Origin: Vitreoscilla sp.
GTDB lineage: Bacteria > Pseudomonadota > Gammaproteobacteria > Burkholderiales > Burkholderiaceae_C
NCBI GenBank assembly: GCA_018780145.1
Contig: JADMKA010000011.1
Location: 1-64,000 of the forward strand
DNA length: 64,000 nucleotides
Direction: 5' to 3'
Position numbers and translations under genes: made by a program. Below, one piece after another: positions 1-64,000 of the stretch (positions are counted from its first letter, which is position 1; each line of letters opens with the position of its first letter). The notes under the pieces were generated by a model that searched no databases, was not told the DNA's origin, and saw nothing but the letters and a program-made list of their open reading frames with translations.

Positions 1-2207
1 TCTACACCGACCTGGCCAAGTGGGCCAAGGCGCGCGGCCACACCCACCTGCGGGTCGACGGCGAGTTCTTGCCCGTCGACCCCTGGCCGCGGCTGGACCG
101 CTTCAAGGAGCACACGCTGGAGCTGCCGGTGGGCGACCTGGTCGTCAGCGCCGCCAACGAGGCCGAGCTGCGCATGCTGCTGGCCCAGGCGCTGGACCTG
201 GGCAAGGGCGTGATGCACCTGCTGCACCCGCTGGACGGCCTGGCCGGCACCATGGCGGCCGGCGGCAGCACCGCGCGCATCGGCGCGGTGACGGTGTTCT
301 CCACCAAGCGCGCCTGCCCGACCTGCGGCACCAGCTACCCCGAGCTGGACCCGCGCATGTTCAGCTACAACAGCAAGCATGGCTGGTGTACCACCTGCGT
401 GGGCACGGGGCTGGCGCTGACCCGGGAGCAGCGCAAGGCCTTCGACGACTCCAAGCGCGACGACGACCGCAAGGAACAGGGCCGGGAGCAGAGCTTCCCG
501 AGCGAGGAGCCGGATGTCGAAGGGGTGGCCGGCGAGCCCTGCCCGGATTGTTCCGGCGCCCGCCTGAACGGCGCTTCCCGAGCGGTGACCTTCGCCGAGC
601 GCGCCATCCAGGAGGTGGCCGCCTGGTCGGTGCACGACACCCGCGGCTGGATCGAGGGCCTGAAGCTCGAAGGCCGCGAGGCCGGCATCGCCCGAGACGT
701 GGTCACCGAGATCCGCAACCGGCTGGAGTTCCTCGAGGAGGTGGGCCTGGGCTACCTGACGCTGGACCGCGCGGCCCCCACCTTGTCCGGCGGCGAGGCC
801 CAGCGAATCCGGCTGGCGGCGCAACTGGGCAGCAACCTGCAGGGCGTGTGCTACGTGCTGGACGAGCCGACCATCGGCCTGCACCCGCGCGACAACGGCA
901 TCCTGCTGAAGGCCCTGCACAACCTCAGCGAGAAGGGCAACACGCTGGTGGTGGTGGAGCACGACGAGGACACCATCCGGCGCGCCGACCACATCATCGA
1001 CATCGGTCCCGGCGCCGGCAAGCGCGGCGGCCGGCTGGTGGCCGAGGGCTCGGCGGCGGACCTGTCGGCGCAGCCCGATTCGCTCACCGGCCGCTTCCTG
1101 GCCCACCCGCTGAAACACCCGCTGCACCCGCGCCGCGCGGTGAGCACCAGCACGCCGGCGATGGAGCTGCGTGGCGCCCACCTGCACAACCTGCAGGCGG
1201 TGGACGTGACCATCCCGCTGCAGCGGCTGGTGGCCGTCACCGGGGTCAGCGGCTCCGGCAAGAGCACGCTGGCGCGCGACGTGCTGCTGGCCAACGTGGC
1301 GGCGCTGGTCGCCGCCAAGGGCCGCAAGCCGGACGAAGCCGCAGCCAGCGCCGTGATGCTGGCCGGTTGCACGGCGCTCAGCGGATGGGGCACGGTGGAC
1401 CGGGTGCTGGAGGTGGACCAGACGCCGATCGGCAAGACCCCGCGTTCGTGCCCGGCCACCTACATCGGCTTCTGGGACCCGATCCGCCGGCTCTTCACCG
1501 AAACCCTGGAGGCCAAGGCCCGCGGCTACGCAGCGGCGCGCTTCTCCTTCAACACCGGCCAGGGCCGCTGCCCGGGCTGCGAGGGGCAGGGCATGCGCAC
1601 CATCGAGATGAGCTTCCTGCCGGACGTGAAGGTGCCCTGCGACCAGTGCCACGGCCAGCGCTTCAACCCCGAGACCCTGGCGGTGAGCTGGCGCGGCAAG
1701 AGCATCGGGGATGTGCTGCGCATGGAGGTCGACGAGGCGGTGGATTTCTTCGCCAGCATGCCGGGCATCGCGCACCCATTGCAGCTTCTCAAGGACGTGG
1801 GCCTGGGCTACCTGACGCTGGGCCAGCCGTCGCCCACGCTGTCTGGCGGCGAGGCCCAGCGCATCAAGCTCGTCACCGAGCTGAGCAAGGTGCGCGACGA
1901 CGTCACCCGCCGCGGCCAGAAGCCGCCCCACACGCTCTACGTGCTGGACGAGCCCACCGTGGGCCTGCACATGGCCGACGTGGAGAAGCTGATCCACGTG
2001 CTGCACCGCCTGGTCGACGGCGGTCACAGCGTGGTCGTGATCGAACACGACCTGGACGTGATCGCCGAGGCCGACTGGGTCATCGACCTGGGCCCGGAGG
2101 GCGGTGGCGCCGGTGGGCGCGTGGTATGTGCCAATGCTCCGGAAGGCGTGGTGCGTGCCGGCACCCACACCGGGGTGGCGTTGGCGCCGGTGCTGGCCCG
2201 GGCCTGA
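1..2207 (+). CDS. uvrA: UvrA-type excinuclease ABC subunit A, 5' end outside window
   Basis: The frame is open from base 3, so only the C-terminal 734 residues are seen. In order they show a first zinc module (CPTCG...CTTC, bases 313-400), CPDCSG near 540, an ABC signature LSGGEAQR and Walker B with YVLDEPTIGLHPRD (785-890), the second-domain Walker A GVSGSGKST (about 1242-1268), a second zinc module (CPGCEGQG...CDQCHGQR, 1568-1662), and a second LSGGEAQR with YVLDEPTVGLH (1840-1970). This is the UvrA architecture: a DNA damage sensor that loads UvrB in nucleotide excision repair. About 35 residues separate the second Walker A from the VDQTPIGKTPRS motif. Whether this is the housekeeping UvrA or a paralogue cannot be decided without the 5' part. 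Confidence 0.9.
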   Translation, partial: YTDLAKWAKARGHTHLRVDGEFLPVDPWPRLDRFKEHTLELPVGDLVVSAANEAELRMLLAQALDLGKGVMHLLHPLDGLAGTMAAGGSTARIGAVTVFSTKRACPTCGTSYPELDPRMFSYNSKHGWCTTCVGTGLALTREQRKAFDDSKRDDDRKEQGREQSFPSEEPDVEGVAGEPCPDCSGARLNGASRAVTFAERAIQEVAAWSVHDTRGWIEGLKLEGREAGIARDVVTEIRNRLEFLEEVGLGYLTLDRAAPTLSGGEAQRIRLAAQLGSNLQGVCYVLDEPTIGLHPRDNGILLKALHNLSEKGNTLVVVEHDEDTIRRADHIIDIGPGAGKRGGRLVAEGSAADLSAQPDSLTGRFLAHPLKHPLHPRRAVSTSTPAMELRGAHLHNLQAVDVTIPLQRLVAVTGVSGSGKSTLARDVLLANVAALVAAKGRKPDEAAASAVMLAGCTALSGWGTVDRVLEVDQTPIGKTPRSCPATYIGFWDPIRRLFTETLEAKARGYAAARFSFNTGQGRCPGCEGQGMRTIEMSFLPDVKVPCDQCHGQRFNPETLAVSWRGKSIGDVLRMEVDEAVDFFASMPGIAHPLQLLKDVGLGYLTLGQPSPTLSGGEAQRIKLVTELSKVRDDVTRRGQKPPHTLYVLDEPTVGLHMADVEKLIHVLHRLVDGGHSVVVIEHDLDVIAEADWVIDLGPEGGGAGGRVVCANAPEGVVRAGTHTGVALAPVLARA

Positions 2208-52239: not shown

Positions 52240-53214
52240 CTAGTCGGCGGTGGCGCCCGAGGCCTTGACGACCTTGGCCCACTTGTCGATCTCGGCCTTG
52301 ATGAAGGCGTCGAACTCGTCGGCGGTGCTGCCCACTGGTGTCAGGCCGATGTCGGCCATGCGGGCCTGAACTTCGGGCGTCTTCAGCGCGCGCGCCAGGT
52401 CGGCGCTGAGCTTGTTGACGATCTCGCGCGGGGTGGCGCTAGCCACCACCGTGCCGAACACGCTTTGCACCGTGAAGCCGGGCACGGTCTCGACACCGGC
52501 CGGGATGTCCGGCGCGATCGGCGAACGCGTCGGGCTCATGATGGTGATGGCCTTCATCTTGCCGGCCTTGATGTGCGGCAGCGACGAGAACAGCGGGTCG
52601 ATCAACAGGTCGACCCGGCCTGCGAACACATCGGGGTAGGCGCCGCCGCTGCCCTTGTACGGCGCATGCAGCATGTCGATGCCGGCCAGGGTCTTGAGCA
52701 GTTCGCCGCCCAGGTGCATGGAGCTGCCGCTGCCCGGTGACGCGTAGGTCAGCTTGCCGGGTTCTTTCTTGGCCAGCGCTATCAACTCCTTCAGGTTGTT
52801 GGCCGCCAGGTTCGGCGAGGCCGAGATCACCACCGGCGAGGTGGCCAGCATGCTCACGCCGGCCAGGTCCTTCACGGTGTCATAGGGCAGGTTCTTGCGC
52901 AGGCTGGGGTTGATCACGTGCGAGGTGACGACCAGACAGATCGTGTGGCCGTCCGGCGGCGACTTGGCGACGAAATCGGTGCCGATCACCGTGCCGGCGC
53001 CGGCCTTGTAGACCACCACCACCGGTTGCTTCCAGATCTCGCTCAGTTGCTTCTCCAGCAGGCGCGCGAGGATGTCCACCGCGCCGCCCGGTGCGTTGGG
53101 CACCACCAGCGTCACGGGCTTGGACGGAAAGGCCGGGGCCTGCGCGAGAGCGGGGCCGGCGAACAGGCCGAGAGCGGCCAGGGCGAGCGTGGCCATCAGG
53201 GGTCGACGTTGCAT
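52240..53214 (-). CDS. Bug-family tripartite tricarboxylate transporter receptor (copy 1)
   Basis: 324 residues with a signal peptide ending ALAQA. FPSKPVTLVVPNAPGGAVDILARLL, VVVYKAGAGTVIGTDFVAKSPPDGHTI and LTYASPGSGSSMHLGGELL are the Bug/TctC signature blocks. Bug proteins bind carboxylates or amides in the periplasm. It lies 32 bases downstream of the ALDH gene, the last gene of a leftward operon. No TctA/TctB membrane genes are in the window. Confidence 0.92.
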   Translation of the reverse strand: MQRRPLMATLALAALGLFAGPALAQAPAFPSKPVTLVVPNAPGGAVDILARLLEKQLSEIWKQPVVVVYKAGAGTVIGTDFVAKSPPDGHTICLVVTSHVINPSLRKNLPYDTVKDLAGVSMLATSPVVISASPNLAANNLKELIALAKKEPGKLTYASPGSGSSMHLGGELLKTLAGIDMLHAPYKGSGGAYPDVFAGRVDLLIDPLFSSLPHIKAGKMKAITIMSPTRSPIAPDIPAGVETVPGFTVQSVFGTVVASATPREIVNKLSADLARALKTPEVQARMADIGLTPVGSTADEFDAFIKAEIDKWAKVVKASGATAD

Positions 53215-53246
53215 GGAGGTCTCCTTGTGGTGTGCAGGCCGGGCCG

Positions 53247-54665
53247 TCAGGCCACACCCTGCAGGTTCTGGTGATCGAGGAAGGATTCGATGCCGAAGCG
53301 GCCGTTCTCGCGGCCGAAGCCGGACGCGCCGACACCGCCGAACGGGGCGGCCAGGTTCTGTGCCGCGCCGTTGACGACGACCTGCCCGGTGTGCATCCGG
53401 CTGGCGACAGCGCGGGCGCGCGCCGGGTCGGCCGACCACAACGCACCGGAGAGCCCATAGGCCGTGCCGTTGGTGATGCGCACCGCGTCGTCGTCGCCAT
53501 CGTGCGCGATCAGGCACAGCACCGGCCCGAAGACCTCCTCGCGCGCCACCACCATCTCCGGCAGCGCCTCGAGCACGGTCGGCCGCACATACTGGCCCGC
53601 ACTGAAGCCGGGTGCGCGGCCCGGGCCGCCGGCAAGCAGCGCGGCGCCTTCGTCGAGCGCGGCGCTGACCATCCGGTGGACGCGGGTGAATTGGGCGGCG
53701 GAGGCCAGCGGCCCCAGCCGCGTGGCCTCGTCGTGAGGGTCACCCGGTGCGTAGGCCGGGAGCTGGTCGAGCAGGGCCTTCCTGACCTCGGCCAGCCGTG
53801 CGCGCGGCACGATGAGGCGAGACTGCGCCGCGCAGATCTGCCCTGAATGCACCATGCAGGCCCGCAATGCGGCCGGCAGGGCGAGGCCGAAATCCGCGTC
53901 ATCGAGCAGCACCGCGGCGGACTTGCCTCCCAGTTCCAGCACCACCCGCTTCAGCCCACGCGCCGCACTGGCCATGATGCGGCGGCCGATTTCGGGCGAG
54001 CCGGTGAAGCTGACCTGCGCGATGCCGGGGTGCGTGACCAGCGCCTCGCCCACCGCCGGCCCGCCCCAGACCAGGTTGACCACGCCGGGCGGCAGGCCGC
54101 ACTCGGCCACGGCCTCGCAGAACAGGCGTGCACTGTCGGGCGCGGCTTCGCTGGGTTTCAGCACGATGGCGCAGCCCGCGGCGATGGCTGCCGCCGCCTT
54201 GGCCATCATCTGGAAGACCGGGGCGTTCCAGGCCGTGATGCCGGCCACCACGCCGACCGGCACACGCCGCACCAGCGAGTGCCGCACCGGCTCCTCCCAG
54301 CGGACCTGGTCGATGCCCTCGATGACGGCGGCCAGCCCGGTGCGCACCATCAGGCCCTGCACGAAGCGGCCGGTGGCGATCGGGCAGCCGGTCTCGCTGG
54401 CGAAGCTGCGGACCATCTCGGCCTCGCGCCGCTCGAGCGCGGCCGCCAGGCGAACCAGCACCGCACGGCGCTGCTCCAGGCTGCTGCCGGCCCAGGCCCG
54501 GAAGCCTTCGCCGGCGGCGCGGACGGCGGTGTCCACGTCCGCCACACTGCACAGGGCCACCTGCGCGATGGTCTGGTCGGTGCTGGGGTCCACCACCGGG
54601 ACGGACTCGCCCGAGCTGCAGGGGTGCCACTGGCCGTGGGCGTAGAACTGGTCGTGGTGTTGCAT
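53247..54665 (-). CDS. NAD(P)-dependent aldehyde dehydrogenase
   Basis: 472 residues. GITAWNAPVFQMMAKAAAAIAAGCAIVLKPSE is the cofactor region with the oxyanion Asn; VSFTGSPEIGRRI the Gly motif; VVLELGGKSAAVLL holds the general-base Glu and HSGQICAAQSR the nucleophilic Cys; EEVFGPVL and NGAAQNLAAPFGGVGASGFGRENG complete the fold. It oxidises an aldehyde to the acid. Its start overlaps the GMC oxidoreductase stop (TGATG), implying that it takes the aldehyde made by that enzyme. Confidence 0.93.
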   Translation of the reverse strand: MQHHDQFYAHGQWHPCSSGESVPVVDPSTDQTIAQVALCSVADVDTAVRAAGEGFRAWAGSSLEQRRAVLVRLAAALERREAEMVRSFASETGCPIATGRFVQGLMVRTGLAAVIEGIDQVRWEEPVRHSLVRRVPVGVVAGITAWNAPVFQMMAKAAAAIAAGCAIVLKPSEAAPDSARLFCEAVAECGLPPGVVNLVWGGPAVGEALVTHPGIAQVSFTGSPEIGRRIMASAARGLKRVVLELGGKSAAVLLDDADFGLALPAALRACMVHSGQICAAQSRLIVPRARLAEVRKALLDQLPAYAPGDPHDEATRLGPLASAAQFTRVHRMVSAALDEGAALLAGGPGRAPGFSAGQYVRPTVLEALPEMVVAREEVFGPVLCLIAHDGDDDAVRITNGTAYGLSGALWSADPARARAVASRMHTGQVVVNGAAQNLAAPFGGVGASGFGRENGRFGIESFLDHQNLQGVA

Positions 54666-56287
54666 CAGGAGGCCTCCTTGTGGCGCAGGAAGGCCGCACC
54701 CTTCTCGGCGATCATCAGCGTGGGGGTGGCGGTGTTGCCGGAGATCAGCGTGGGCATCACCGACGCGTCGATGACGCGCAGCCCCTGTACGCCGATCACC
54801 CGCAACTGCGGGTCGACCACGGCCATCGGGTCGGTCGGCAGGCCCATCTTCGCGGTGCCCACCGGGTGGAAGATGCTGGTGCCGGTCTTCGCGGCAAGCT
54901 CGACGAGGCCGGCCTCGTCGTCGTCGCTCACGCCCGCGCCGGCCCAGGCCTCGACCGGCCGATAGCGCGCCATCGCCGGCTGCCGCATGACACGCCGCGT
55001 GACGCGGATCGCGTTGGCCGCCACCCGGCGGTCTCGCTCGGTCGACAGGAAGTTGACCCGGATGCCCGGCGCCGCCGCCGGATCGGCGCTCTTCAAATTC
55101 ACGCGGCCGCGGCTGCTGGGGCGCAGGTCGTAGACGATCATCGTCAGCCCAGGGAAGGGGTCGAAAGGCGCGCTGAACTGCTCGCGCGAGAAGGCCAGCA
55201 CGTTGTAGCCCAGGTCGGCCGGCGTCACTTCGGGGCTCGAGCGGGCGAACAAGCCGAGCTGGCAGGGCGCCATGGTCAAGGGGCCGCGGCGGGTGAGGGC
55301 GTAGCGCAGCGCCATGCCCGCCTGGGCCAGCTTCGAGTTCATGCCGGCGTTCAGGGTCCGGGCACCCTGCAGCCGGTAGCGCAGGCCGATCTGCAGGTGG
55401 TCCTGCAGGTTGGCACCCACACCCGGCCGGTCCACCACCGGGCGGATGCCCAACTCGGCCAGAGGCGCAGCGGGCCCGATGCCCGAGCGCAGCAGGATCT
55501 GCGGCGAGCCGAAGGCCCCCGCGGCCAGCACCACCTCGCGCCGGGCCACGGCGCTGCGGGCCACCCCGCCCTGCCGCCAGGCCATGCCCACCGCGCGGCC
55601 GGCCTCCACGAGCACCCGGTCGGCCAGCGCACCGGTCTCCACCGTGAGGTTGGGGCGGTTCAACACCGGCTTCAGGAAGGCATCGGCCGCGCTCCAGCGA
55701 CGGCCTTCGCGTTGGTTGACGTGGATGGGCCCGACGCCCTCGTTGTCACCGCGATTGAAGTCGTCCACTGCGGGTATGCCGGCTTGCACGGCGGCGTCGC
55801 GCACAGCGTCCAGCATCGGCCACCACATGCGGGCGGCATCGACCCGCCATTCGCCGCCGGCGCCGTGCCACTCGCTGGCGCCGCCGACATGGTCCTCGTG
55901 CCCCTTGAAGAACGGCAGCACCTCGGACCAGCCCCAGCCGGCCAGCCCGAGGTCTCGCCAGTGGTCGTAGTCGGCCGCGTGGCCGCGGATGGCCACCATG
56001 CCGTTGATGGCGGTCGAGCCGCCCAGCACCTTGCCCCGCGGGTGCTTGAGCACGCGGCCGTTCAGGCCGGGCTCGGGTTCGCTGGTGTAGCACCAGTCGG
56101 ACTGCGGGTTGCCGATGGTGTAACGGTAGCCCACCGGCACGCGAAACCAGATCGACTCGTCGCGGCCACCGGCCTCCAGCAGCAGCACGCGCGTGGCCGG
56201 GTCCGCCGACAGCCGGTTGGCCAGCAGGCAACCGGCCGCCCCGGCGCCGACCACGATGTAGTCGAAAGGGGCCGGCTCCTGGTTCAT
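54665..56287 (-). CDS. GMC-family FAD oxidoreductase (choline dehydrogenase-like)
   Basis: 540 residues. DYIVVGAGAAGCLLANRL and VLLLEAGG bind FAD; GKVLGGSTAINGMVAIRG is GMC signature 1; AAGAFGSPQILLRSGIGP signature 2; the C-terminal pair is His in SIFHPVGTAKMG and Asn in SGNTATPTLMIAEKGAA. It oxidises an alcohol to an aldehyde. Start and stop overlap the flanking Bug and ALDH genes, so the three are one operon. MNQEPAPFDY is the start; longer open frame upstream belongs to the Bug gene region. Confidence 0.93.
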   Translation of the reverse strand: MNQEPAPFDYIVVGAGAAGCLLANRLSADPATRVLLLEAGGRDESIWFRVPVGYRYTIGNPQSDWCYTSEPEPGLNGRVLKHPRGKVLGGSTAINGMVAIRGHAADYDHWRDLGLAGWGWSEVLPFFKGHEDHVGGASEWHGAGGEWRVDAARMWWPMLDAVRDAAVQAGIPAVDDFNRGDNEGVGPIHVNQREGRRWSAADAFLKPVLNRPNLTVETGALADRVLVEAGRAVGMAWRQGGVARSAVARREVVLAAGAFGSPQILLRSGIGPAAPLAELGIRPVVDRPGVGANLQDHLQIGLRYRLQGARTLNAGMNSKLAQAGMALRYALTRRGPLTMAPCQLGLFARSSPEVTPADLGYNVLAFSREQFSAPFDPFPGLTMIVYDLRPSSRGRVNLKSADPAAAPGIRVNFLSTERDRRVAANAIRVTRRVMRQPAMARYRPVEAWAGAGVSDDDEAGLVELAAKTGTSIFHPVGTAKMGLPTDPMAVVDPQLRVIGVQGLRVIDASVMPTLISGNTATPTLMIAEKGAAFLRHKEAS

Positions 56288-57270
56288 TGCTTGGGGATGC
56301 CCGCCAGCTTGACCAGGTTGCCCCAGGCGTCGTAGGCGGCTTTCACCGTGGTGGCCAGTTCCTGCGGCGAGGAGCTCTCGGCGGTGTAGGCGCCGAGCTT
56401 GTAGAAGTCCTGCACCGACTGTTGGGCGATGGCCTGCGCCAACGCGGCGTTGATCTTCTTCACGACCTCCGGGTTCATCCTGGCCGGGCCGAACCAGCCG
56501 AGGAAACTGGTGATGTCCAGGTCCTTCACGCCCTGCTCGGCGAAGGTCGGCACATCGGGCAGGAAGGGCGTGCGCGCCGGTGCGGCCACGGCAATGATCT
56601 TGGCCTTGCCGCTCTTGGAGTTCTGGATCGCCGCCGGGGCCGCGTCGAAGGCGATCTGGATGCGGCCTTCGATCAGGTCGGCCGCCAGGTCGGCGCCGCC
56701 CTTGTAGGGCACATGGACCATGTCGATGCCGGTGTTCTTGGCGAACACCTGCCCGAAGATGTGCGACGAGGTGCCGACGCCGAAGGAGGCGTAGCTCAGC
56801 TTGCCCGGGTTGGCGCGGCCGTAGGCGATGAGGCCCTTGACGTCGTTGATGCCCATCGCACTGTTGATCACCAGCACCAGCGGGCCCTTGGCACCCACCG
56901 AGATCGGTGTGAAGTCGCGCACCGGGTCGAAGGTGGCGGCCAGCAGCGTGTGCGGTGTCTGCGCCATGGTGGACGAGGCGCTGTAGAACAGCGTGTGGCC
57001 GTCCGGTGCCGACTTGATCACCTCGTTGGCGGCCAGCAGGGTGCCGCCGCCAGGGCGGTTCTCGATGACCACCGTCGTGCCCAGTAGCTCGGCCAGCTTG
57101 GGCGTCACCGCACGGGCCTGGGCGTCGACCCCGACGCCGGGCGGGAAGGCCACGATCACGCGGATCGGCTTGTCCTTGATGGGGAACTCCTGCGCCAGGC
57201 TGGCGGAGGTGGCGCCGAACGCGCACAGGGCGAGCAGGCTGTGGAGGGTTTTCGAAAGGCGGCTCGTCAT
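56284..57270 (-). CDS. Bug-family receptor (copy 2)
   Basis: 328 residues: signal peptide (ending ASLAQ), KPIRVIVAFPPGVGVDAQARAVTPKL, VVIENRPGGGTLLAANEVIKSAPDGHTLFY, KLSYASFGVGTSSHIFGQVF and HVPYKGGADLAADLIEGRIQIAFDA. It is the first gene of the leftward operon (Bug, GMC, ALDH, Bug) and is divergent from the FAD oxidoreductase arm. Probably captures the pathway substrate in the periplasm. Confidence 0.92.
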   Translation of the reverse strand: MTSRLSKTLHSLLALCAFGATSASLAQEFPIKDKPIRVIVAFPPGVGVDAQARAVTPKLAELLGTTVVIENRPGGGTLLAANEVIKSAPDGHTLFYSASSTMAQTPHTLLAATFDPVRDFTPISVGAKGPLVLVINSAMGINDVKGLIAYGRANPGKLSYASFGVGTSSHIFGQVFAKNTGIDMVHVPYKGGADLAADLIEGRIQIAFDAAPAAIQNSKSGKAKIIAVAAPARTPFLPDVPTFAEQGVKDLDITSFLGWFGPARMNPEVVKKINAALAQAIAQQSVQDFYKLGAYTAESSSPQELATTVKAAYDAWGNLVKLAGIPKQ

Positions 57271-57454
57271 GGTGTCTCCTGGGTGCCGGCAGTGGGTGGC
57301 GCGCTGCTTGTAATGGTCGTCACGTCCATTTAAAGAATATTTGCTGACCTGAACAATGTCAATGATGGCTTGTCATACCCAGTACGCTGGAATGGGAGTT
57401 GAATGTTTTGGACGCGACGACCATAATTTGCGCAAGACAGCGAAGGACCCAGCC
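57271..57454. promoter_or_regulatory. Divergent promoter of the catabolic cluster
   Basis: 184 bases between the two arms. The stretch 57329-57376 is strikingly AT-rich for this window. It has ATTTAAAGAATATTTG (57328-57343) and a direct repeat of TGTCA (57357-57361 and 57371-57375). Promoters for both arms and the IclR operator are expected here; no exact -35/-10 pair is convincing. Confidence 0.5.
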
Positions 57455-58888
57455 ATGAAGACGGTGACCCGGACAGACGAACGCATCCTCAGCTCGGACA
57501 TCTTCGAGCGCGAGCGCGGCCAGAAGCGTCCGGACCAGGGCAGCTGGTTCGAGGCCGGGCGCGAGATCCCCATCTACCACCGCTGCCAGGTGCTGGTGGT
57601 CGGCGGCGGGCCGTCGGGCACGGCCGCTGCGGCAGCCGCCGCGAAGCAGGGCGCCGACGTGGCCTTGCTGGAGCGCTACAACCACCTGGGCGGCCTGTCC
57701 ACCGGCGGCCTGGTGATCTGGATCGACCGCATGACCGACTGGCAGGGCGATCTGGTCATCCGCGGCTTTGCCGAGGAGTTGTTCGACCGCCTGCCGGCCG
57801 ATGCGGTGGCCGGCCCCTCGCGAGCCGACTGGGGCTCGCGCGACGTGAGCAAGGCCAGCTACTGGAGCAACCGCACCGCGGCCTACCACGGCGTGGTGAC
57901 CTGGTCGCCGACCATCGACCCCGAGCGCCTGAAGTTGCTGAGCCAGGACATCGTGCTGGAACGCCGCGTCAAGCTGATCTACCACGGCTGGGGCTCCTGG
58001 CCCATCGTCGAAGACGGTGCCGTGAAGGGTGTGGTGTTCGAGAGCAAGGAGGGCCGCATGGCCATCCTGGCCGACGTGGTGGTCGACGCCACCGGCGATG
58101 GCGACCTGTTCGCCCGCGCCGGTGCGGCCTACGACAACGACATCGAGGAGGCCGACGTGCACCACTGCATGAACACCTCCTGGCTGTTCGGCGGGGTGGA
58201 CATGGACCGCTGGATCGATTTCAAGACCGGCGCGCCCGAGCAGCACGCGGCCTTCATGCAGGGCGGCCGTGACCGGCTCGGCCTGTTCGAGCGGCCCTTC
58301 GTCTCCTGGCGCAAGGACATCGCCCTGTTCATGGGCCCGCGCCAGTCCGGCTACTCGGCGCTGGACGTGGACGACCTCACCGAGGTCGAGGTGAAGTCGC
58401 ACCGCGCGATGGCGGCCCACCTCGACTACTTCCGCGCCCATGCGCCGGGCTTCGAGAATGCCTTCCTGATGATGAGCGCGCCGCAGATCGGCGTGCGCCA
58501 TGCGCGGCGGCTGAAAGGCCTCGGCAGTGTGCTGCGCACCGAGTGGCCGAACGGCATTGCCTTGCCCGACGAGGTGGGCGTCAGCCCGGCGGTGTCGCCC
58601 AAGTTCCCCAACATCTCCATCCCCTATGGTGCGCTGGTGCCCGAGAAGCTGGACGGCCTGCTGGCTTGCGGCCGCCACATCTCGTGCGACAAGAACTCGC
58701 ACGGCTTCATGCGCGAGATCCCGCAGTGCTGGATCACCGGCCAGGCAGCGGGCACCGCAGCGGCGCTGGCGGCAGCGCAGCGGGTTCAACCGCGTGCGGT
58801 GGAGATCGCCGCGCTGCAGTCGGCGCTGGTGGCACAGGGCGTCTACCTGCGCGCCAACGACAAGGTATCCGCCGCCGCCGCGGCCTGA
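57455..58888 (+). CDS. FAD-dependent oxidoreductase (PF12831 type)
   Basis: 477 residues. CQVLVVGGGPSGTAAAAAAAKQGADVALLERYNHLGGLSTGGLV is the FAD Rossmann fold; VVVDATGDGDLFARAGAAY and the C-terminal LVPEKLDGLLACGRHISCDKNSHGFMREIPQCWITGQAAGTAAALA are typical of FAD_oxidored flavoproteins, which include enzymes acting on hydroxy-acids and tricarballylate-like compounds. CDKNSHGFMRE and CWITGQAAG hold conserved cysteines. The start was placed at MKTVTRTDE (AAGGA upstream). First gene of the rightward arm. Confidence 0.88.
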   Translation: MKTVTRTDERILSSDIFERERGQKRPDQGSWFEAGREIPIYHRCQVLVVGGGPSGTAAAAAAAKQGADVALLERYNHLGGLSTGGLVIWIDRMTDWQGDLVIRGFAEELFDRLPADAVAGPSRADWGSRDVSKASYWSNRTAAYHGVVTWSPTIDPERLKLLSQDIVLERRVKLIYHGWGSWPIVEDGAVKGVVFESKEGRMAILADVVVDATGDGDLFARAGAAYDNDIEEADVHHCMNTSWLFGGVDMDRWIDFKTGAPEQHAAFMQGGRDRLGLFERPFVSWRKDIALFMGPRQSGYSALDVDDLTEVEVKSHRAMAAHLDYFRAHAPGFENAFLMMSAPQIGVRHARRLKGLGSVLRTEWPNGIALPDEVGVSPAVSPKFPNISIPYGALVPEKLDGLLACGRHISCDKNSHGFMREIPQCWITGQAAGTAAALAAAQRVQPRAVEIAALQSALVAQGVYLRANDKVSAAAAA

Positions 58889-58900
58889 GGAGCATCCCGC

Positions 58901-59701
58901 ATGGCAGACCCCACGCCGCCCGACAACCGCCCCGACACCGTCAGCGCGCTGGAGCGCGGCATCGCCGTGCTGCGCTGCTTCGACGAGGACCGCCGCGTCC
59001 TGAGCCCCACCGACCTGGCCCGCCTGACCGGCATCCCGCGCCCCACCGTCACGCGCCTGGCGACCACCCTCGTCACGCTGGGCCTGATGAAGCAGGAGCA
59101 TGGTGGCGAGCGCTTCATGCTGGGCCCTGGCGTGGTGTCGCTGGCCCGCGTGTTCCTGGCCGGCCTGGACGTGCGTGCCGCGGCGAGGCCGCTGATGCAG
59201 GCCCTGGCGGAGGCGGCCGGCGGTTCGGTCTACCTGGCGGTACGCGACGGCCTGGAGATGGTGTTGATCGAGGCCTGCCGGCCGCGGTCGTCGATGCTGG
59301 CAGCGCGGCTGGACGTGGGCTCACGCACCCCGATGGCCAACTCGGCGCTGGGCCGGGCCTACCTGTCCGCGGTGGAGCCCGCCGAACGCGACGCGATGAT
59401 CGAGACCCTGCGCCTGGCGCGCGGCGGTGACTGGAGCAACCTGGAGCCCGGGCTGCGGCGTGCGCTCGACGATTGCCGCCAACTCGGCTACTGCATTTCG
59501 GCGGGTGAGTTCCACCGCGAGATCAACTCGGTGTCGGTGCCCCTGGTGGGCCCCAACGGCGAGGTGATGGCGCTCAACTGCGGCACGGCCGCCTTCGTCT
59601 TCACCGAGGCGCATCTGCGCCGCGAGGTCGCGCCGCGCCTGATGGCCATGGCCCGCCAACTGGCGCAGGACATCGGCGGCCACGTGCCCGGCCCCACCTG
59701 A
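58901..59701 (+). CDS. IclR-family transcriptional regulator
   Basis: 266 residues: winged helix (about 10-75, SALERGIAVLRCFDEDRRVLSPTDLARLTGIPRPTVTRLATTLVTLGL) and IclR ligand-binding domain (90-260, GSRTPMANSALGRAYLSA, GYCISAGEFHREINSVSVPLVGPNGEVMALNC). It lies inside the rightward arm, 12 bases after the FAD oxidoreductase gene, so it is presumably autoregulated and controls both arms. Confidence 0.93.
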   Translation: MADPTPPDNRPDTVSALERGIAVLRCFDEDRRVLSPTDLARLTGIPRPTVTRLATTLVTLGLMKQEHGGERFMLGPGVVSLARVFLAGLDVRAAARPLMQALAEAAGGSVYLAVRDGLEMVLIEACRPRSSMLAARLDVGSRTPMANSALGRAYLSAVEPAERDAMIETLRLARGGDWSNLEPGLRRALDDCRQLGYCISAGEFHREINSVSVPLVGPNGEVMALNCGTAAFVFTEAHLRREVAPRLMAMARQLAQDIGGHVPGPT

Positions 59702-59723
59702 ACGCCGCACCCGAAGGACCCGC

Positions 59724-61019
59724 ATGCGATTGAACGACGACGAACAGGCGATGCGCGACGGCCGCGATGGCGACGCCGTGGCGCTGGCGATGGACCTGCT
59801 GGTCCGCTACGGCGAGGCCCTGGGCGCCGAGCGCCTGGTGGACACGAACAATGTCTGCGGCACCGTCAGTGCCACCACCCCCTTCATGCGCGACTACGCC
59901 GTGCAGAAAGGCGGCATGGACGCGGTGTTCAGCGAATTCAACCTCGACAGCGACCGGGTGGTCGAGATCCCGCCCGCCAAGGTCTACACCACCCACCTGC
60001 AACTCGGCTTCGACCCACGCCAGGGCGAGCGCATGGGCATCGCCGACGAGGTGATCCGCTTCTACCAGAAGGGCGAGGCCTACACCGCGGGCCACGGTAT
60101 CCAGCTGGCCAACACCTGCACGCCCTACCAGGTGGGCAATGTGCCGACGCGCGGCGAGCACTGCGCGTGGATGGAGTCCTCGGCCGTCATCTACTGCAAC
60201 TCGGTGCTGGGTGGCCGCACCAACACCGAGGGGCGCGAGAGCACCGGCGCGGCGATGCTGACGGGCAAGATCCCCGACTGGGGCTACCACCTGGACGAGA
60301 ACCGCTTCGGCAGCCACCTGGTCGAGCTGGACATGGAGGTCGAATCCACCTTCGAATGGGGCTTGCTCGGCTACCACATCGGCGAGATCGTGCAGGAGCG
60401 CGTGCCGGTGCTGGTGGGCCGCGGCGGCCGGTTTGCCAAGGTGCCCAACCTGCAGCGGCTGAAGCACTTCGGCGCCGCGGCGTCGTCGTCGGGCGGGGTC
60501 GAGATGTACCACCTGGTGGGGGTGACGCCCGAGGCGATGACCGTCGAGCAGGCTTTCGGCAGGAACCGGCCGGTGCAGACCATCCGCTACGGCCTGGCCG
60601 AGCGGCAGCTGGCCTGGGAAAAGCTCAACAGCACCGCGACCGACCACCAGGTCGACTACGTGATGCTGGGCTGCCCGCACTACAACATCGAGCAGATCTG
60701 GGAGGCGTGCAAGCTCCTCGAAGGCCGCAAGGTGCACACCAACACGGCGCTGTGGATCTTCACCCCGCGCGCCATCAAGGCCCTGGCCGACCAGAACGGC
60801 TACACGAAGATCATCGAGGACGCGGGCGCGGTGCTGATGAGCGACTCCTGCTCGGCGATGAGCCGCGCCATGCCGCCCGGCACCAAGGTGGCGGCGCTGG
60901 ACTCCGCCAAGCACGCCCACTACCTGCCGGCCATCATGGGCGTGCAGGCCTGGTTCGGCACCACGGCCGACTGCATCGACGCCGCCTGCACCGGGCGCTG
61001 GAACGGGAGGCTCGCATGA
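59724..61019 (+). CDS. Aconitase X large (catalytic) subunit
   Basis: 431 residues. VDTNNVCGTVSATTPFMRDY, GIQLANTCTPYQVGNVPTRGEHCAWMESSAVIYCNSVLGGRTNTEG, VMLGCPHYNIEQIWE and DAGAVLMSDSCSAMSRAMPPG form the AcnX (DUF521) core with three iron-sulfur cysteines (TCTPY, GCPHY, DSCSA). Known AcnX enzymes dehydrate cis-3-hydroxy-L-proline or phosphomevalonate. Neither pathway's other genes are present here, so the substrate is open. The stop overlaps the small-subunit start. Confidence 0.9.
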   Translation: MRLNDDEQAMRDGRDGDAVALAMDLLVRYGEALGAERLVDTNNVCGTVSATTPFMRDYAVQKGGMDAVFSEFNLDSDRVVEIPPAKVYTTHLQLGFDPRQGERMGIADEVIRFYQKGEAYTAGHGIQLANTCTPYQVGNVPTRGEHCAWMESSAVIYCNSVLGGRTNTEGRESTGAAMLTGKIPDWGYHLDENRFGSHLVELDMEVESTFEWGLLGYHIGEIVQERVPVLVGRGGRFAKVPNLQRLKHFGAAASSSGGVEMYHLVGVTPEAMTVEQAFGRNRPVQTIRYGLAERQLAWEKLNSTATDHQVDYVMLGCPHYNIEQIWEACKLLEGRKVHTNTALWIFTPRAIKALADQNGYTKIIEDAGAVLMSDSCSAMSRAMPPGTKVAALDSAKHAHYLPAIMGVQAWFGTTADCIDAACTGRWNGRLA

Positions 61020-61441
61020 CGTCGACGACCGTCCTGCGCGGCCGCAAGGTGGTCGGGGGTGTGGCCGAGGGCGAGGCCCTGGTCACCCGCGACCGCGTCT
61101 CCGGCTGGGGTGGCATCGACCCGCGCACCGGCACCATCATCGAGACGCGCCACGAGCTGCGAGGCGTCAGTTTCGCCGGCAAGGTGCTGGTGTTCCCGGG
61201 CGCCAAGGGCAGCAGCGGCTGGTCCAACCAGTTCCACCTGACCCGCCTGCTCGGCACCGCGCCGGCGGCGATGTTGTTCAACGACATGACAACCAAGATC
61301 GCCCTCGGTGCGGTGGTGACCCGCGCGCCGGCGATGACCGATTTCGACCAGGACCCGCTGGGGCTGATCGAGACCGGCGACTGGGTCAAGGTCGACGCCG
61401 ACCGCGGCGTCGTCGAAATCACCAAACGAGGCAACCGATGA
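61016..61441 (+). CDS. Aconitase X small (swivel, DUF126) subunit
   Basis: 141 residues: VLRGRKVVGGVAEGEALVTRDRVSGWGGIDPRTGTIIE, GVSFAGKVLVFPGAKGSSGWSNQFH (Ser-rich active-site loop) and LFNDMTTKIALGAVVTRAPAMTDFDQDPL. It forms the swivelling domain that closes the AcnX active site. The start overlaps the large-subunit stop and its stop overlaps the next start (ATGA in both cases), giving tight coupling. Confidence 0.92.
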   Translation: MTSTTVLRGRKVVGGVAEGEALVTRDRVSGWGGIDPRTGTIIETRHELRGVSFAGKVLVFPGAKGSSGWSNQFHLTRLLGTAPAAMLFNDMTTKIALGAVVTRAPAMTDFDQDPLGLIETGDWVKVDADRGVVEITKRGNR

Positions 61442-63135
61442 GCGACACCCCGCGGCGCCAACTGCGCAGCAACTTCCCCCGCGGCTCCTACCTCTGGGCC
61501 GTGCGCAACGCGCAGTGGCATGCGATGGGCATCCCGGAATCCGACTGCGAGAAGCCGAAGATCGCGGTGGTCAATTCCAGCTCCGAACTGGCCGCCTGCT
61601 ACAGCCACCTGGACCAGGTGGCGGTGGAGGTGAAGAAGGCGATCCGTGCGGCCGGCGGCGTGCCGTTCGAGATCCGCACCGCGGCGCCCAGCGATTTCGT
61701 CACCGGCGCCGGGGCGCGCGGCGCCTACATGCTGGCCTCGCGCGACCTGGTCACCAACGACATCGAGGTGGCGGTCGAAGGCGCGCAGCTGGACGGCATG
61801 GTCTGCCTGACCTCCTGCGACAAGACCGTGCCCGGGCAGCTGATGGCCGCGGCGCGCCTGAACGTGCCGACCATCCTGGTGCCCTGCGGCTACCAGGCCA
61901 GCGGCGAATACAAGGGACAGCACATCGACATCGAAGAGGTCTTCATCCACTCGATGCATGCGGTGACCGGCCACCTGCCGGTGGAAGACGTGGTCGAGAT
62001 GAGCCGCGAGGCGATCCGCTCGCCCGGGGTCTGCTCGGGCCTGGGCACGGCGAACTCGATGCACATCGTCTGCGAGGCCCTGGGCATGGCGTTGCCGGGC
62101 AGTGCGCCGGTGGCGGCGCTGTCGCCCAAGATGTTCGCCGACGCCCGTGCGGCCGGCGAGCGGATCGTGCAGATGGTCTGGGACGATCTGAAGCCGCGGG
62201 ACATCCTCTCCGAGGGCGCCTTCGGCAATGCGGTGAAGGCCATCCTGGCGGTCGGCGGCTCGCTGAACGCCGTCAAGCACCTGCAGGCGGTGGCCACCGA
62301 GGCCGGCAGCGCGGTCGACATCTACGGCATGTTCGAGCGCTTCGGCCCCGAGACGCCGGTGCTGGCCGGCATCCGCCCGATCGGCGAACGTTTCATCGAG
62401 GAGTTCGAGGCGGCCGGCGGCGCCCGGGCCCTGATGAAGCAGCTCGCGCCGTTGCTCGACACCAGCGCGATGACGGTCACCGGCGAAACGCTGGCAACCA
62501 ACCTGCGCGCGGTGCGTGTGGCCGATGCCGAGGTGATCCGCGCCATCGACAACCCGGTCGCGCCGAACCCGGCCATCGTGCTGCTGCGCGGCAACCTGGC
62601 GCCCGACGCGGCACTGATCAAGACCGGCATCGGGGAGCGCAAGACGCGGCGTTTCACCGGCCCGGCGATCTGCTTCGGCAGCTCGGACGCGGCGCTCGCG
62701 GCGCTGAACAGCGGCGCCATCCGGCCGGGCCACGTGATCGTGATGCGCGGCGCCGGTGCCTGCGGCGGCCCGGCCATGGGCGGGGGCGCCTCGCGGGTGG
62801 TGTTCGGCATCGATGGTGCCGGCCTGGGCGACCAGGTGGCGATGCTGACCGACGGCCACCTCTCGGGCCTGGTCTGCAAGGGCCTGGTGGTGGCCGAGGT
62901 GGCGCCCGAAGCAGCCCTCGGCGGCCCGCTGGCGCTGGTGCAGGACGGCGATGCCATCACCGTCGACCTGGACACGCGGCGCGTTGACCTGGAGGTGCCC
63001 GAGGCCGAGATCGCGGCGCGGCGCGAACGCTGGCAGGCGCCGGCGCCGATGTTCGACCGCGGCTGGCTGCAGATCTACCGCCGCAACGTGAGCTCCAACG
63101 CCCGCGGCGCGGTGCTCGTCAACAAAGTGGAGTGA
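61438..63135 (+). CDS. IlvD/Edd-family dehydratase
   Basis: 565 residues. SELAACYSHLDQVAVEVKKAI, CLTSCDKTVPGQLMAAARLNVPT and RSPGVCSGLGTANSMHIVCEALGMALPGSAPV supply the iron-sulfur cysteines and Mg-site of the dihydroxy-acid/sugar-acid dehydratase family; GAGACGGPAMGGG, GLGDQVAMLTDGHLSGLVCK complete it. Because it sits in a catabolic operon with AcnX, GMC and ALDH rather than with branched-chain amino-acid genes, a sugar-acid or other dihydroxy-acid substrate is more likely than the IlvD reaction. Confidence 0.9.
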   Translation: MSDTPRRQLRSNFPRGSYLWAVRNAQWHAMGIPESDCEKPKIAVVNSSSELAACYSHLDQVAVEVKKAIRAAGGVPFEIRTAAPSDFVTGAGARGAYMLASRDLVTNDIEVAVEGAQLDGMVCLTSCDKTVPGQLMAAARLNVPTILVPCGYQASGEYKGQHIDIEEVFIHSMHAVTGHLPVEDVVEMSREAIRSPGVCSGLGTANSMHIVCEALGMALPGSAPVAALSPKMFADARAAGERIVQMVWDDLKPRDILSEGAFGNAVKAILAVGGSLNAVKHLQAVATEAGSAVDIYGMFERFGPETPVLAGIRPIGERFIEEFEAAGGARALMKQLAPLLDTSAMTVTGETLATNLRAVRVADAEVIRAIDNPVAPNPAIVLLRGNLAPDAALIKTGIGERKTRRFTGPAICFGSSDAALAALNSGAIRPGHVIVMRGAGACGGPAMGGGASRVVFGIDGAGLGDQVAMLTDGHLSGLVCKGLVVAEVAPEAALGGPLALVQDGDAITVDLDTRRVDLEVPEAEIAARRERWQAPAPMFDRGWLQIYRRNVSSNARGAVLVNKVE

Positions 63136-63140
63136 TCTCG

Positions 63141-64000
63141 ATGATCAATCGACGTTTCGCGCTGGCCCTGGTGGCCACGGCGCTGTGCGGTGCGGCGGGT
63201 GCGCAGACCGCGTTTCCCAGCAAGCCGCTGCGGTTGGTGGTGGGTTTCGCCCCGGGCGGCGCGGCCGATTCGGTGGCACGGGTGATCGCCCAGGCCCTGG
63301 GCAAGCAGCTCGGCCAGCAGGTGATCGTTGAGAACAAGCCGGGTGCAGACGGCATCCTGGCCGCGCAGGAGGTCCAGCGGGCCGCGCCGGACGGCCACAC
63401 GCTGCTGCTGGGTACCAACACCGCGCTGGTGGCCGTGCCCTCGTTGCGGCCCAACCCACCCTACGACCCATTCAAGGCCTTCACGCCGATCAGCTCGGCC
63501 GGCCAGTTCTCGATGTTCCTGCTGGTCAACACGGCGTTGCCGGTGAAGACCGTGGCCCAGCTGCTGGAGCACGTGGCGGCCAACCCCGGCAAGCTCAACT
63601 CGGCCTCCAGCAACAGCGCGGCCGAGCTGGCCATGCTGCAGCTGCTGGGCGAGCGCAAGGTGCTCAACGTGCGCTACAAGGGCGATGTGCCGGCCCTCAC
63701 CGACCTGGTGGGCAACAACATCCACATGATCTGGACCACCGGCACCAGTGCGCCGGCCTTTGTGAAGGACGGCCGCGCCCGCGCGCTGCTGACCCTGCAG
63801 CCGCAGCGCAGCCCGCTGTTGCCGGATGTGCCCACCGCCACCGAGGCCGGCCTGGGCACCCTGACCATCAAGCCCTGGGCCGGCTTCTTCGGCCCCGCTG
63901 GCATGCCGGCCGAGATCGTCAACCGGCTGAGCGCGGAGCTGGGGGCGGCCCTGCAGCGGCCCGAGGTGCGCGAGCAACTCGCCCAGCAGGGCTTCGATGG
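63141..64000 (+). CDS. Bug-family receptor (copy 3), cut by window end
   Basis: 286 residues seen; the stop is beyond the window. Signal peptide ending AGAQ, then FPSKPLRLVVGFAPGGAADSVARVIAQAL, VIVENKPGADGILAAQEVQRAAPDGHTLLLGTN and VRYKGDVPALTDLVGNNIHMIWTTG. It begins five bases after the IlvD/Edd stop, so it belongs to the rightward operon. Third receptor in the cluster, each with a different binding-pocket sequence. Confidence 0.9.
   Translation, partial: MINRRFALALVATALCGAAGAQTAFPSKPLRLVVGFAPGGAADSVARVIAQALGKQLGQQVIVENKPGADGILAAQEVQRAAPDGHTLLLGTNTALVAVPSLRPNPPYDPFKAFTPISSAGQFSMFLLVNTALPVKTVAQLLEHVAANPGKLNSASSNSAAELAMLQLLGERKVLNVRYKGDVPALTDLVGNNIHMIWTTGTSAPAFVKDGRARALLTLQPQRSPLLPDVPTATEAGLGTLTIKPWAGFFGPAGMPAEIVNRLSAELGAALQRPEVREQLAQQGFD

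Follow-up and report, generated by a model that had tools for sequence, protein, structure and literature searches.

A bacterial gene cluster joining a divergent two-subunit aconitase X to a PF12831 flavoprotein and, in most relatives, an IlvD/Edd-family dehydratase

Here we report a putative catabolic gene cluster around a two-subunit aconitase X (AcnX) of Vitreoscilla sp. (assembly GCA_018780145.1; genome of 5.57 Mb). The cluster lies in the first 64000 bases of the 77532-base contig JADMKA010000011.1, a stretch referred to below as the window. The sole AcnX has its large subunit at 59724-61019. Two divergent arms flank a gap of 184 bases (Table 1): the left arm, on the minus strand, encodes a Bug receptor, a GMC alcohol dehydrogenase, an aldehyde dehydrogenase (ALDH) and another Bug receptor, and the right arm, on the plus strand, encodes in this order a PF12831 flavoprotein, an IclR-family regulator, the large and small AcnX subunits, an IlvD/Edd-family dehydratase (IlvD) and a third Bug receptor. 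Across both arms, five junctions overlap by 1 to 4 bases. The gap has its length of 184 bases only if the flavoprotein starts at ATG 57455, which the alignment gave as the called start in four relatives (loci L009, L010, L019 and L069 in our numbering); longer forms starting at 57428 or 57356 are possible. The initial annotation, made from the window alone, had described the divergent arms, the 184-base promoter and the short overlaps, all of which the gene coordinates confirmed. The names and coordinates in its gene list were also right, but the list left out the flavoprotein, which proved to be the commonest partner of AcnX.

Table 1. Positions of the cluster features and of the adjoining genes on the contig
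Feature	Position	Strand	Basis and remarks
Bug (TctC-type) periplasmic receptor 2	52240..53217	-	PF03401 227.6 bits
Aldehyde dehydrogenase (ALDH)	53247..54665	-	PF00171 458 bits
GMC alcohol dehydrogenase	54665..56287	-	PF00732/PF05199; 1-base overlap with ALDH
Bug (TctC-type) periplasmic receptor 1	56284..57270	-	PF03401 203 bits; 4-base overlap with GMC
Divergent promoter region	57271..57454		184 bases separating the start codons of Bug 1 and the flavoprotein
Operator-like palindrome TGGTCGTCACGTCCA, copy 1	57314..57328		exact match
Operator-like palindrome TGGACGCGACGACCA, copy 2	57409..57423		exact match
PF12831 FAD-dependent oxidoreductase (subtype A)	57455..58888	+	PF12831 257.7 bits; open reading frame from 57356
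IclR-family regulator	58901..59701	+	PF01614, PF09339
Aconitase X large subunit	59724..61019	+	PF04412 381 bits
Aconitase X small (swivel) subunit, catalytic Ser66	61016..61441	+	PF01989 83.5 bits; 4-base overlap with large subunit
IlvD/Edd-family dehydratase	61438..63135	+	PF00920, PF24877; 4-base overlap with AcnX small subunit
Third Bug receptor	63132..64100	+	PF03401 196.7 bits for the whole gene; GTG start; window ends at 64000
GntR/FCD regulator	64123-64821	-	Pfam scan
VanA-type Rieske oxygenase	64874-65965		PF19112 (vanillate O-demethylase C-terminal domain) 172.5 of 23.5 bits
Reductase of Rieske oxygenase	65962-66924

Both AcnX subunits scored over the curated Pfam cut-offs (381 vs 31.5 bits for PF04412, 83.5 vs 27 bits for PF01989). 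The residues mapped onto them were those reported for characterised enzymes in the excerpts of PMC8184944 used here, and they were counted in the relatives described below, leaving out L005. Cys132, Cys317, Cys376, Glu151, Ser152, Ser153, Lys396 and Tyr400 were present in 115 of 115 large subunits, and Ser66 in 114 of 114 small subunits. The third cysteine stands in the archaeal and not the type-I arrangement, and the three cluster cysteines of the phosphomevalonate type (Tk Cys110, Cys283 and Cys342) were matched in all 115. According to the excerpts of PMC10040528 used here, cysteines at the matching sites of the Aeropyrum phosphomevalonate dehydratase hold a [4Fe-4S] cluster, and by analogy the AcnX of this clade would bind one too.

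The landmark residues of the two known activities are replaced. The equivalent of Asp203 was never Asp (Cys in 67, Ala in 33, Val in 10 and Thr in 5; n = 115), the equivalent of Cys510 was Ala or Ser, and that of Thr72 was Gly or Ala in the small subunits. The equivalent of the phosphate-binding Asn79 was never Asn (Leu in 104, Thr in 8, Val in 3; n = 115). Identity as a cis-3-hydroxyproline dehydratase was rejected on the absence of Asp203, the separate clade (see below) and the lack of any PF05544 protein in the genome, which is 96.5% complete; identity as a phosphomevalonate dehydratase was rejected on the absence of Asn79. Judged by the residues that define the two known kinds, this AcnX belongs to neither.

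In a tree of 58 rows (40 clade members hand-picked for spread, 15 more distant sequences, L005 and two PDB chains), the 40 clade rows formed one group (100/99) and 11 type-I rows another (100/99); deeper placement is unsure because several outside rows have long branches. The phylogeny, which contains no type IIa row, thus sets the AcnX apart from 11 type-I proteins. PDB relatives were of two kinds: at 180 bits the phosphomevalonate-type enzyme of Thermococcus, and at 159-163 bits the hydroxyproline dehydratase of Agrobacterium. The structure model of the large subunit was poor (predicted local distance difference test score, pLDDT, of 67) and was set aside.

The type IIb phosphomevalonate dehydratases of Thermococcus and Aeropyrum share with the clade the separate subunits, the three cysteines and the catalytic Ser, Glu, Lys and Tyr. 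The clade differs from them in having Leu, Thr or Val at Asn79, an insertion of extra residues between about 50 and 91, small-subunit Trp31, Gly68 and Trp69 (Tyr in 3 of 114) where Thermococcus has Leu, Val and Gly, and a bacterial, transporter-rich setting. The type I hydroxyproline enzymes have the fold family, the catalytic residues and Trp31 in common with the clade, but they are single fused chains, often found in hydroxyproline clusters, and possess Asp203 and Cys510; the Agrobacterium enzyme holds a [2Fe-2S] cluster, as stated in the excerpts of PMC8184944. Types IIc to IIf, like the clade, are bacterial two-subunit AcnX proteins, and those excerpts describe them too as devoid of the landmark residues of either known activity. 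The same excerpts leave these types uncharacterised, and those of PMC10040528 call their function unknown.

Relatives were collected as 84 first-set loci, based on the best 80 of 356 relatives (AcnX 67-85% identical, mostly Burkholderiales by their titles) with 3 of 160 matching plasmid records added, and 34 loci from further genome samples. Flanks were fetched for all 118; three loci without a called large and small subunit (L082, L155, L156) were dropped, leaving 115, and the partial match G1428 was not included. The clade is rare and patchy: matches above 600 bits occurred in 6 of 398 genomes of a phylum sample and 2 of 369 of a class sample, in 5 of 249 genomes of a Pseudomonas-like genus (genus name inferred) and in 7 of 295, 14 of 249 and 6 of 247 genomes of three other families, each count including the genome used as centre.

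A PF12831 flavoprotein was found near AcnX in 102 of the 115 loci, IlvD in 88 and both in 85, followed by IclR (59), a TauD-type dioxygenase (24), an AAHS-type MFS transporter (19), GMC (6) and a Rieske oxygenase (3). The initial annotation had suggested looking for the same gene order among relatives, and the core row does recur: flavoprotein, IclR, AcnX large and AcnX small were neighbours in this order in 53 of the 84 first-set loci (window included), and IlvD followed no more than two genes past the row in 47 of those 53. Of the 88 loci with IlvD, 85 have it on the AcnX strand at a distance of no more than five genes. Among the 32 of the 115 loci that come from the further genome samples, a set less crowded by Variovorax, 23 had the flavoprotein and 15 had IlvD, and parts of the gene set recurred outside Burkholderiales. 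The cluster is therefore real, conserved and beyond chance assembly. By these counts, the flavoprotein-AcnX pair is its steadiest unit and IlvD comes next, while the transporter and the first oxidising enzyme vary.

The variation is visible already in the nearest relative, an Azohydromonas (L006, AcnX 85% identical), whose left arm reads Bug, Bug, TauD versus Bug, GMC, ALDH, Bug in the window. GMC occurred within five genes of AcnX in six loci (the window, L053, L085, L075 as a piece, L128 and L068), and TauD or GMC in 29 of 115, both together in L075 only. ALDH was that close in two loci, the window and one with a 30% identical mmsA-type enzyme, and it was discarded as a core member, its best relative in other loci being at most 42% identical. 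The GMC protein is choline-dehydrogenase-like (PRK02106, 552 of 605 bits, under the cut-off), and the best NCBIfam model for the ALDH is betaine aldehyde dehydrogenase (TIGR01804, 361 of 668.6 bits, far under the cut-off). The transport genes of other lineages are of the AAHS-type MFS, TRAP, OprD or TonB kind. GMC, ALDH and Bug are thus present as first annotated, but they are variable accessories and not members of the core.

The flavoprotein matched PF12831 over its full profile (257.7 bits vs a cut-off of 27; positions 1-416 of 416) and was the only near full-length match among 22 in the genome. Three flavoprotein subtypes, 23-30% identical, occupy the same slot across the loci. The structure model (pLDDT 80) gave many matches to enzymes that use flavin adenine dinucleotide (FAD), led by the geranylgeranyl-reductase-like 3oz2 (Z 20.4, root-mean-square deviation 3.8 over 302), with urocanate and fumarate reductases (Z 18-19), halogenases and GidA also among them; because of this broad range, the model says little about the reaction of the flavoprotein.

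IlvD is one of three family members in the genome, which score 742 (the housekeeping gene, over the cut-off), 468 and 296.5 bits against TIGR00110 (cut-off 618.15); a housekeeping role of the cluster copy, the second of these, was rejected on the score of the first. The cluster copy scored best with two dihydroxy-acid dehydratase models (507 and 468 bits), ahead of those for L-arabinonate (400), phosphogluconate (173) and xylonate (147) dehydratases. As in dihydroxy-acid dehydratase, the cluster cysteines (SELAAC, SCDK, GVCSG) and the Ser of the LSG motif were kept in at least 90% of 83 sequences, whereas in the clade consensus TDGRFSGG is changed to TDGhLSGLVcKG and GPKGGPGMPEM to GxcGGPaMGGGAS. 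Kept cysteines together with two motifs changed in a conserved way fit a new substrate and the same chemistry. Plasmid 1 of Polaromonas sp. JS666 (L127, 7064-11138) carries a PF12831 flavoprotein (32% identical), an IlvD (50%) and a Bug gene, with D-glycerate and semialdehyde dehydrogenases downstream; the 15 kb shown include no annotated AcnX.

Both IclR domains were over the cut-off (PF09339, 56.0 vs 22 bits; PF01614, 89.4 vs 24 bits), and the best NCBIfam model was PcaR/PcaU/PobR (TIGR02431, 151 of 284.75 bits, under the cut-off). The gap contains two exact copies of the palindrome TGGWCN5GWCCA, 95 bases apart, and the narrower pattern TGGWCGNNNCGWCCA had seven matches in the window with at most one mismatch, against 1.06 expected. 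The palindrome was spotted by eye in the upstream alignment and then counted in the first-set loci with a placeable start, giving 53 upstream regions with IclR and 6 without. With at most one mismatch it was found in 15 of the 53 (shuffles: mean 0.81, maximum 4) and in none of the 6; with at most two, it was found in 45 of the 53 (shuffles: 9.9, maximum 19). A search of the upstream regions for 12- and 14-mers gave no strong block. The palindromes recur upstream of the flavoprotein in IclR-type relatives and are likely the operator of IclR, and the cluster is probably regulated as a unit.

On balance, we favour the view that the cluster is an IclR-controlled regulon for the uptake and degradation of a hydroxylated carboxylic acid. 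The Bug receptors would capture the acid or its precursor, and in this strain the acid probably arises from an alcohol precursor by oxidation through GMC and ALDH. A TauD-type dioxygenase lies nearby in some relatives, and neither TauD nor GMC is present in most loci. By analogy with characterised homologues, the AcnX heterodimer would dehydrate a beta-hydroxy carboxylate: Ser66 of the small subunit would take the proton adjoining the carboxylate, the [4Fe-4S] cluster held by Cys132, Cys317 and Cys376 would take the hydroxyl, and Glu151, Ser152, Lys396 and Tyr400 would hold the substrate (roles as given for homologues in the excerpts of PMC8184944). The flavoprotein would carry out the adjoining redox step, and IlvD, where present, would form a 2-oxo acid from one of the route's 2,3-dihydroxy acids and so feed central metabolism. 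The clade would then represent, as we think rather more probable than the alternatives taken together, a third AcnX activity: a bacterial [4Fe-4S] dehydratase of a carboxylate other than cis-3-hydroxyproline or mevalonate 5-phosphate, which has a dedicated PF12831 flavoprotein, and usually also a neofunctionalised IlvD, as its partner in an undescribed catabolic pathway of several bacterial lineages. The initial proposal of a catabolic, IclR-linked carboxylate cluster with a probably new AcnX substrate holds up; a clustering with hydroxyproline enzymes was sought among 11 type-I proteins, and the rest of their pathway in the 13.5 kb past the window and, as PF05544, in the genome, and neither was found.

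Several points weigh against this interpretation. Neither flavoprotein nor IlvD lies near AcnX in 10 of the 115 loci (some at contig ends), and the counts over the 115 are not independent because Variovorax and other Comamonadaceae dominate them. No IlvD is near AcnX in 27 loci, and the Polaromonas plasmid has IlvD and flavoprotein without an annotated AcnX, so the earlier suggestion that the acid is dehydrated twice stays conjectural. Trp31 is present in 114 of 114 small subunits, and its Agrobacterium counterpart touches the hydroxyproline ring; a ring-shaped or proline-like substrate is therefore still compatible with that position. Two of the six regions without IclR match the palindrome at two mismatches or fewer, and a third exact match to the narrower pattern (TGGACGAGCCGACCA) lies far from the cluster at window position 859-873, where it may be due to chance. 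Moreover, the sequences in which the palindrome was first spotted, the window and a few relatives, also belong to the set in which it was counted. Finally, all substrates given to genes of the set are predictions.

Neighbouring genes give diverse hints at the substrate. AAHS-type MFS and OprD porin genes in the Pseudomonas-like set and TonB receptors (one Pfam-confirmed) in the sphingomonad-like set hint at an acid of a size handled by aromatic-acid systems. L120 and L154 have an acyl-CoA synthetase (PRK12582, 727 of 777 bits), which we take to be feruloyl-type, as well as an SDR and an enoyl-CoA hydratase near AcnX, and L080 has relatives of the synthetase and hydratase. An arylmalonate-decarboxylase-like gene occurs in L061 and L083, and amidohydrolase_2 and Rieske-domain genes occur in five loci of two families. 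In Cupriavidus necator (L005, 11998-14053), a 40% identical AcnX stands in yet another setting, with three neighbouring RraA/aldolase-like genes (PF03737) after it. These hints do not converge, and no substrate is therefore named.

Among the alternatives, an aldonic or other sugar-acid route, with 2-oxo-3-deoxy acids formed from a sugar-type acid by dehydration at both IlvD and AcnX, is unlikely. Solved IlvD/Edd relatives include L-arabinonate and galactonate dehydratases, and the Polaromonas plasmid sets its 50% identical IlvD and its flavoprotein near D-glycerate and semialdehyde dehydrogenase genes, but the cluster IlvD scores dihydroxy-acid dehydratase models above the three sugar-acid models, and no kinase or sugar-acid aldolase was recognised in the gene maps, in which most neighbours were not scanned.

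We give slightly less credit to a hydroaromatic acid route, which would run from a quinate- or shikimate-like acid towards an aromatic acid through the action of the dehydratases, with oxidation of a ring alcohol as the task of the flavoprotein. It would suit the AAHS aromatic-acid-type MFS genes of 19 loci, the PcaR/PcaU/PobR model of the IclR protein, and L046/L161, where AroE-like and TIM-barrel genes lie at a distance of about 8.5 to 10 kb from AcnX. A further parallel is plasmid-borne in Variovorax paradoxus VAI-C (L124, 7144-14122), where a xylose-isomerase-like TIM barrel and an AroE-like protein come after a 62% identical PF12831-like flavoprotein. Bug, two alpha/beta hydrolases and a gluconolactonase-like gene lie on the flanks, and the 19 kb shown include no annotated AcnX. 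This row perhaps serves a related hydroaromatic or lactone route. Against a hydroaromatic route of the cluster stands the chemistry of IlvD, whose mechanism as generally understood is unfit for the ring itself: in a cyclohexane carboxylate, the carboxyl-bearing ring carbon cannot hold H and OH together. The AroE-like proteins also score 138 and 139 of 252 bits, far under the shikimate dehydrogenase cut-offs, and the AroE-like and TIM-barrel genes of L046 are not in the same row as AcnX.

Quite improbable is a mevalonate-like, branched hydroxy acid as the substrate, with a diol first oxidised by GMC and ALDH and the acid then dehydrated in the manner of the archaeal enzyme. The three-cysteine set shared with the archaeal phosphomevalonate-type enzyme, the best IlvD score (known dihydroxy-acid dehydratase substrates are branched) and the GMC gene beside AcnX in the distant L128 would fit it, but the phosphate-binding Asn of Thermococcus is replaced throughout and GMC is confined to six loci. 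A divergent hydroxyproline route with AcnX as cis-3-hydroxyproline dehydratase is scarcely credible: the family homology, Trp31 and a match to the fused-chain model NF051439, though at 230.5 of 700 bits for the large subunit (67.4 for the small), are set against the replaced Asp203, Cys510 and Thr72, the separate clade, the lack of PF05544 and the lack of hydroxyproline genes in the 13.5 kb past the window.

An AcnX clade without the landmark residues of both known activities is here provided with a defined set of partners, a likely operator and hosts that can be cultured, and its substrate should therefore be findable by a promoter screen. The role of the bacterial type IIc-IIf AcnX proteins is an open question in the excerpts of PMC10040528 and PMC8184944. 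Two unrelated families of iron-sulfur dehydratases may work side by side in the pathway. No publication on this cluster was found in the literature searched (judged by title, among sources other than preprints), in which this catabolic setting of a known enzyme family was not found described.

The genes past position 64000, which the initial annotation had pointed to, were read to the end of the contig: a Pfam scan of the 13 genes in these 13.5 kb found none of the hydroxyproline pathway. The GntR/FCD regulator and the Rieske oxygenase with its reductase are followed by NapC-type and other cytochromes, a reductase, a two-component pair and one gene without a Pfam match, and the contig ends in the start of an NAD-glutamate dehydrogenase gene. 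The Rieske oxygenase, VanA-type by its Pfam domain, matched no NCBIfam vanillate demethylase model; the sole match listed was a methylsterol monooxygenase model (89 of 600 bits). The oxygenase was near AcnX in three loci (the window, L009 and L027; the latter two copies 69-72% identical), accompanied by the GntR gene in the window (contig 64123-66924) and L009, and the pair may belong to a regulon separate from the AcnX cluster.

UGSC-family-like proteins stand beside a thioredoxin-reductase-like gene near the AcnX clusters of L046 (2698-4374; weak NCBIfam match, 56 of 125 bits) and L081 (4668-6305; by similarity only). The AcnX loci titled Pantoea (L007), Akkermansia muciniphila (L055) and Acidobacteria (L083) are Burkholderiales-like by their neighbours, or by the tree for L007 and L083, and look like mislabelled or contaminated assemblies, or cases of transfer.

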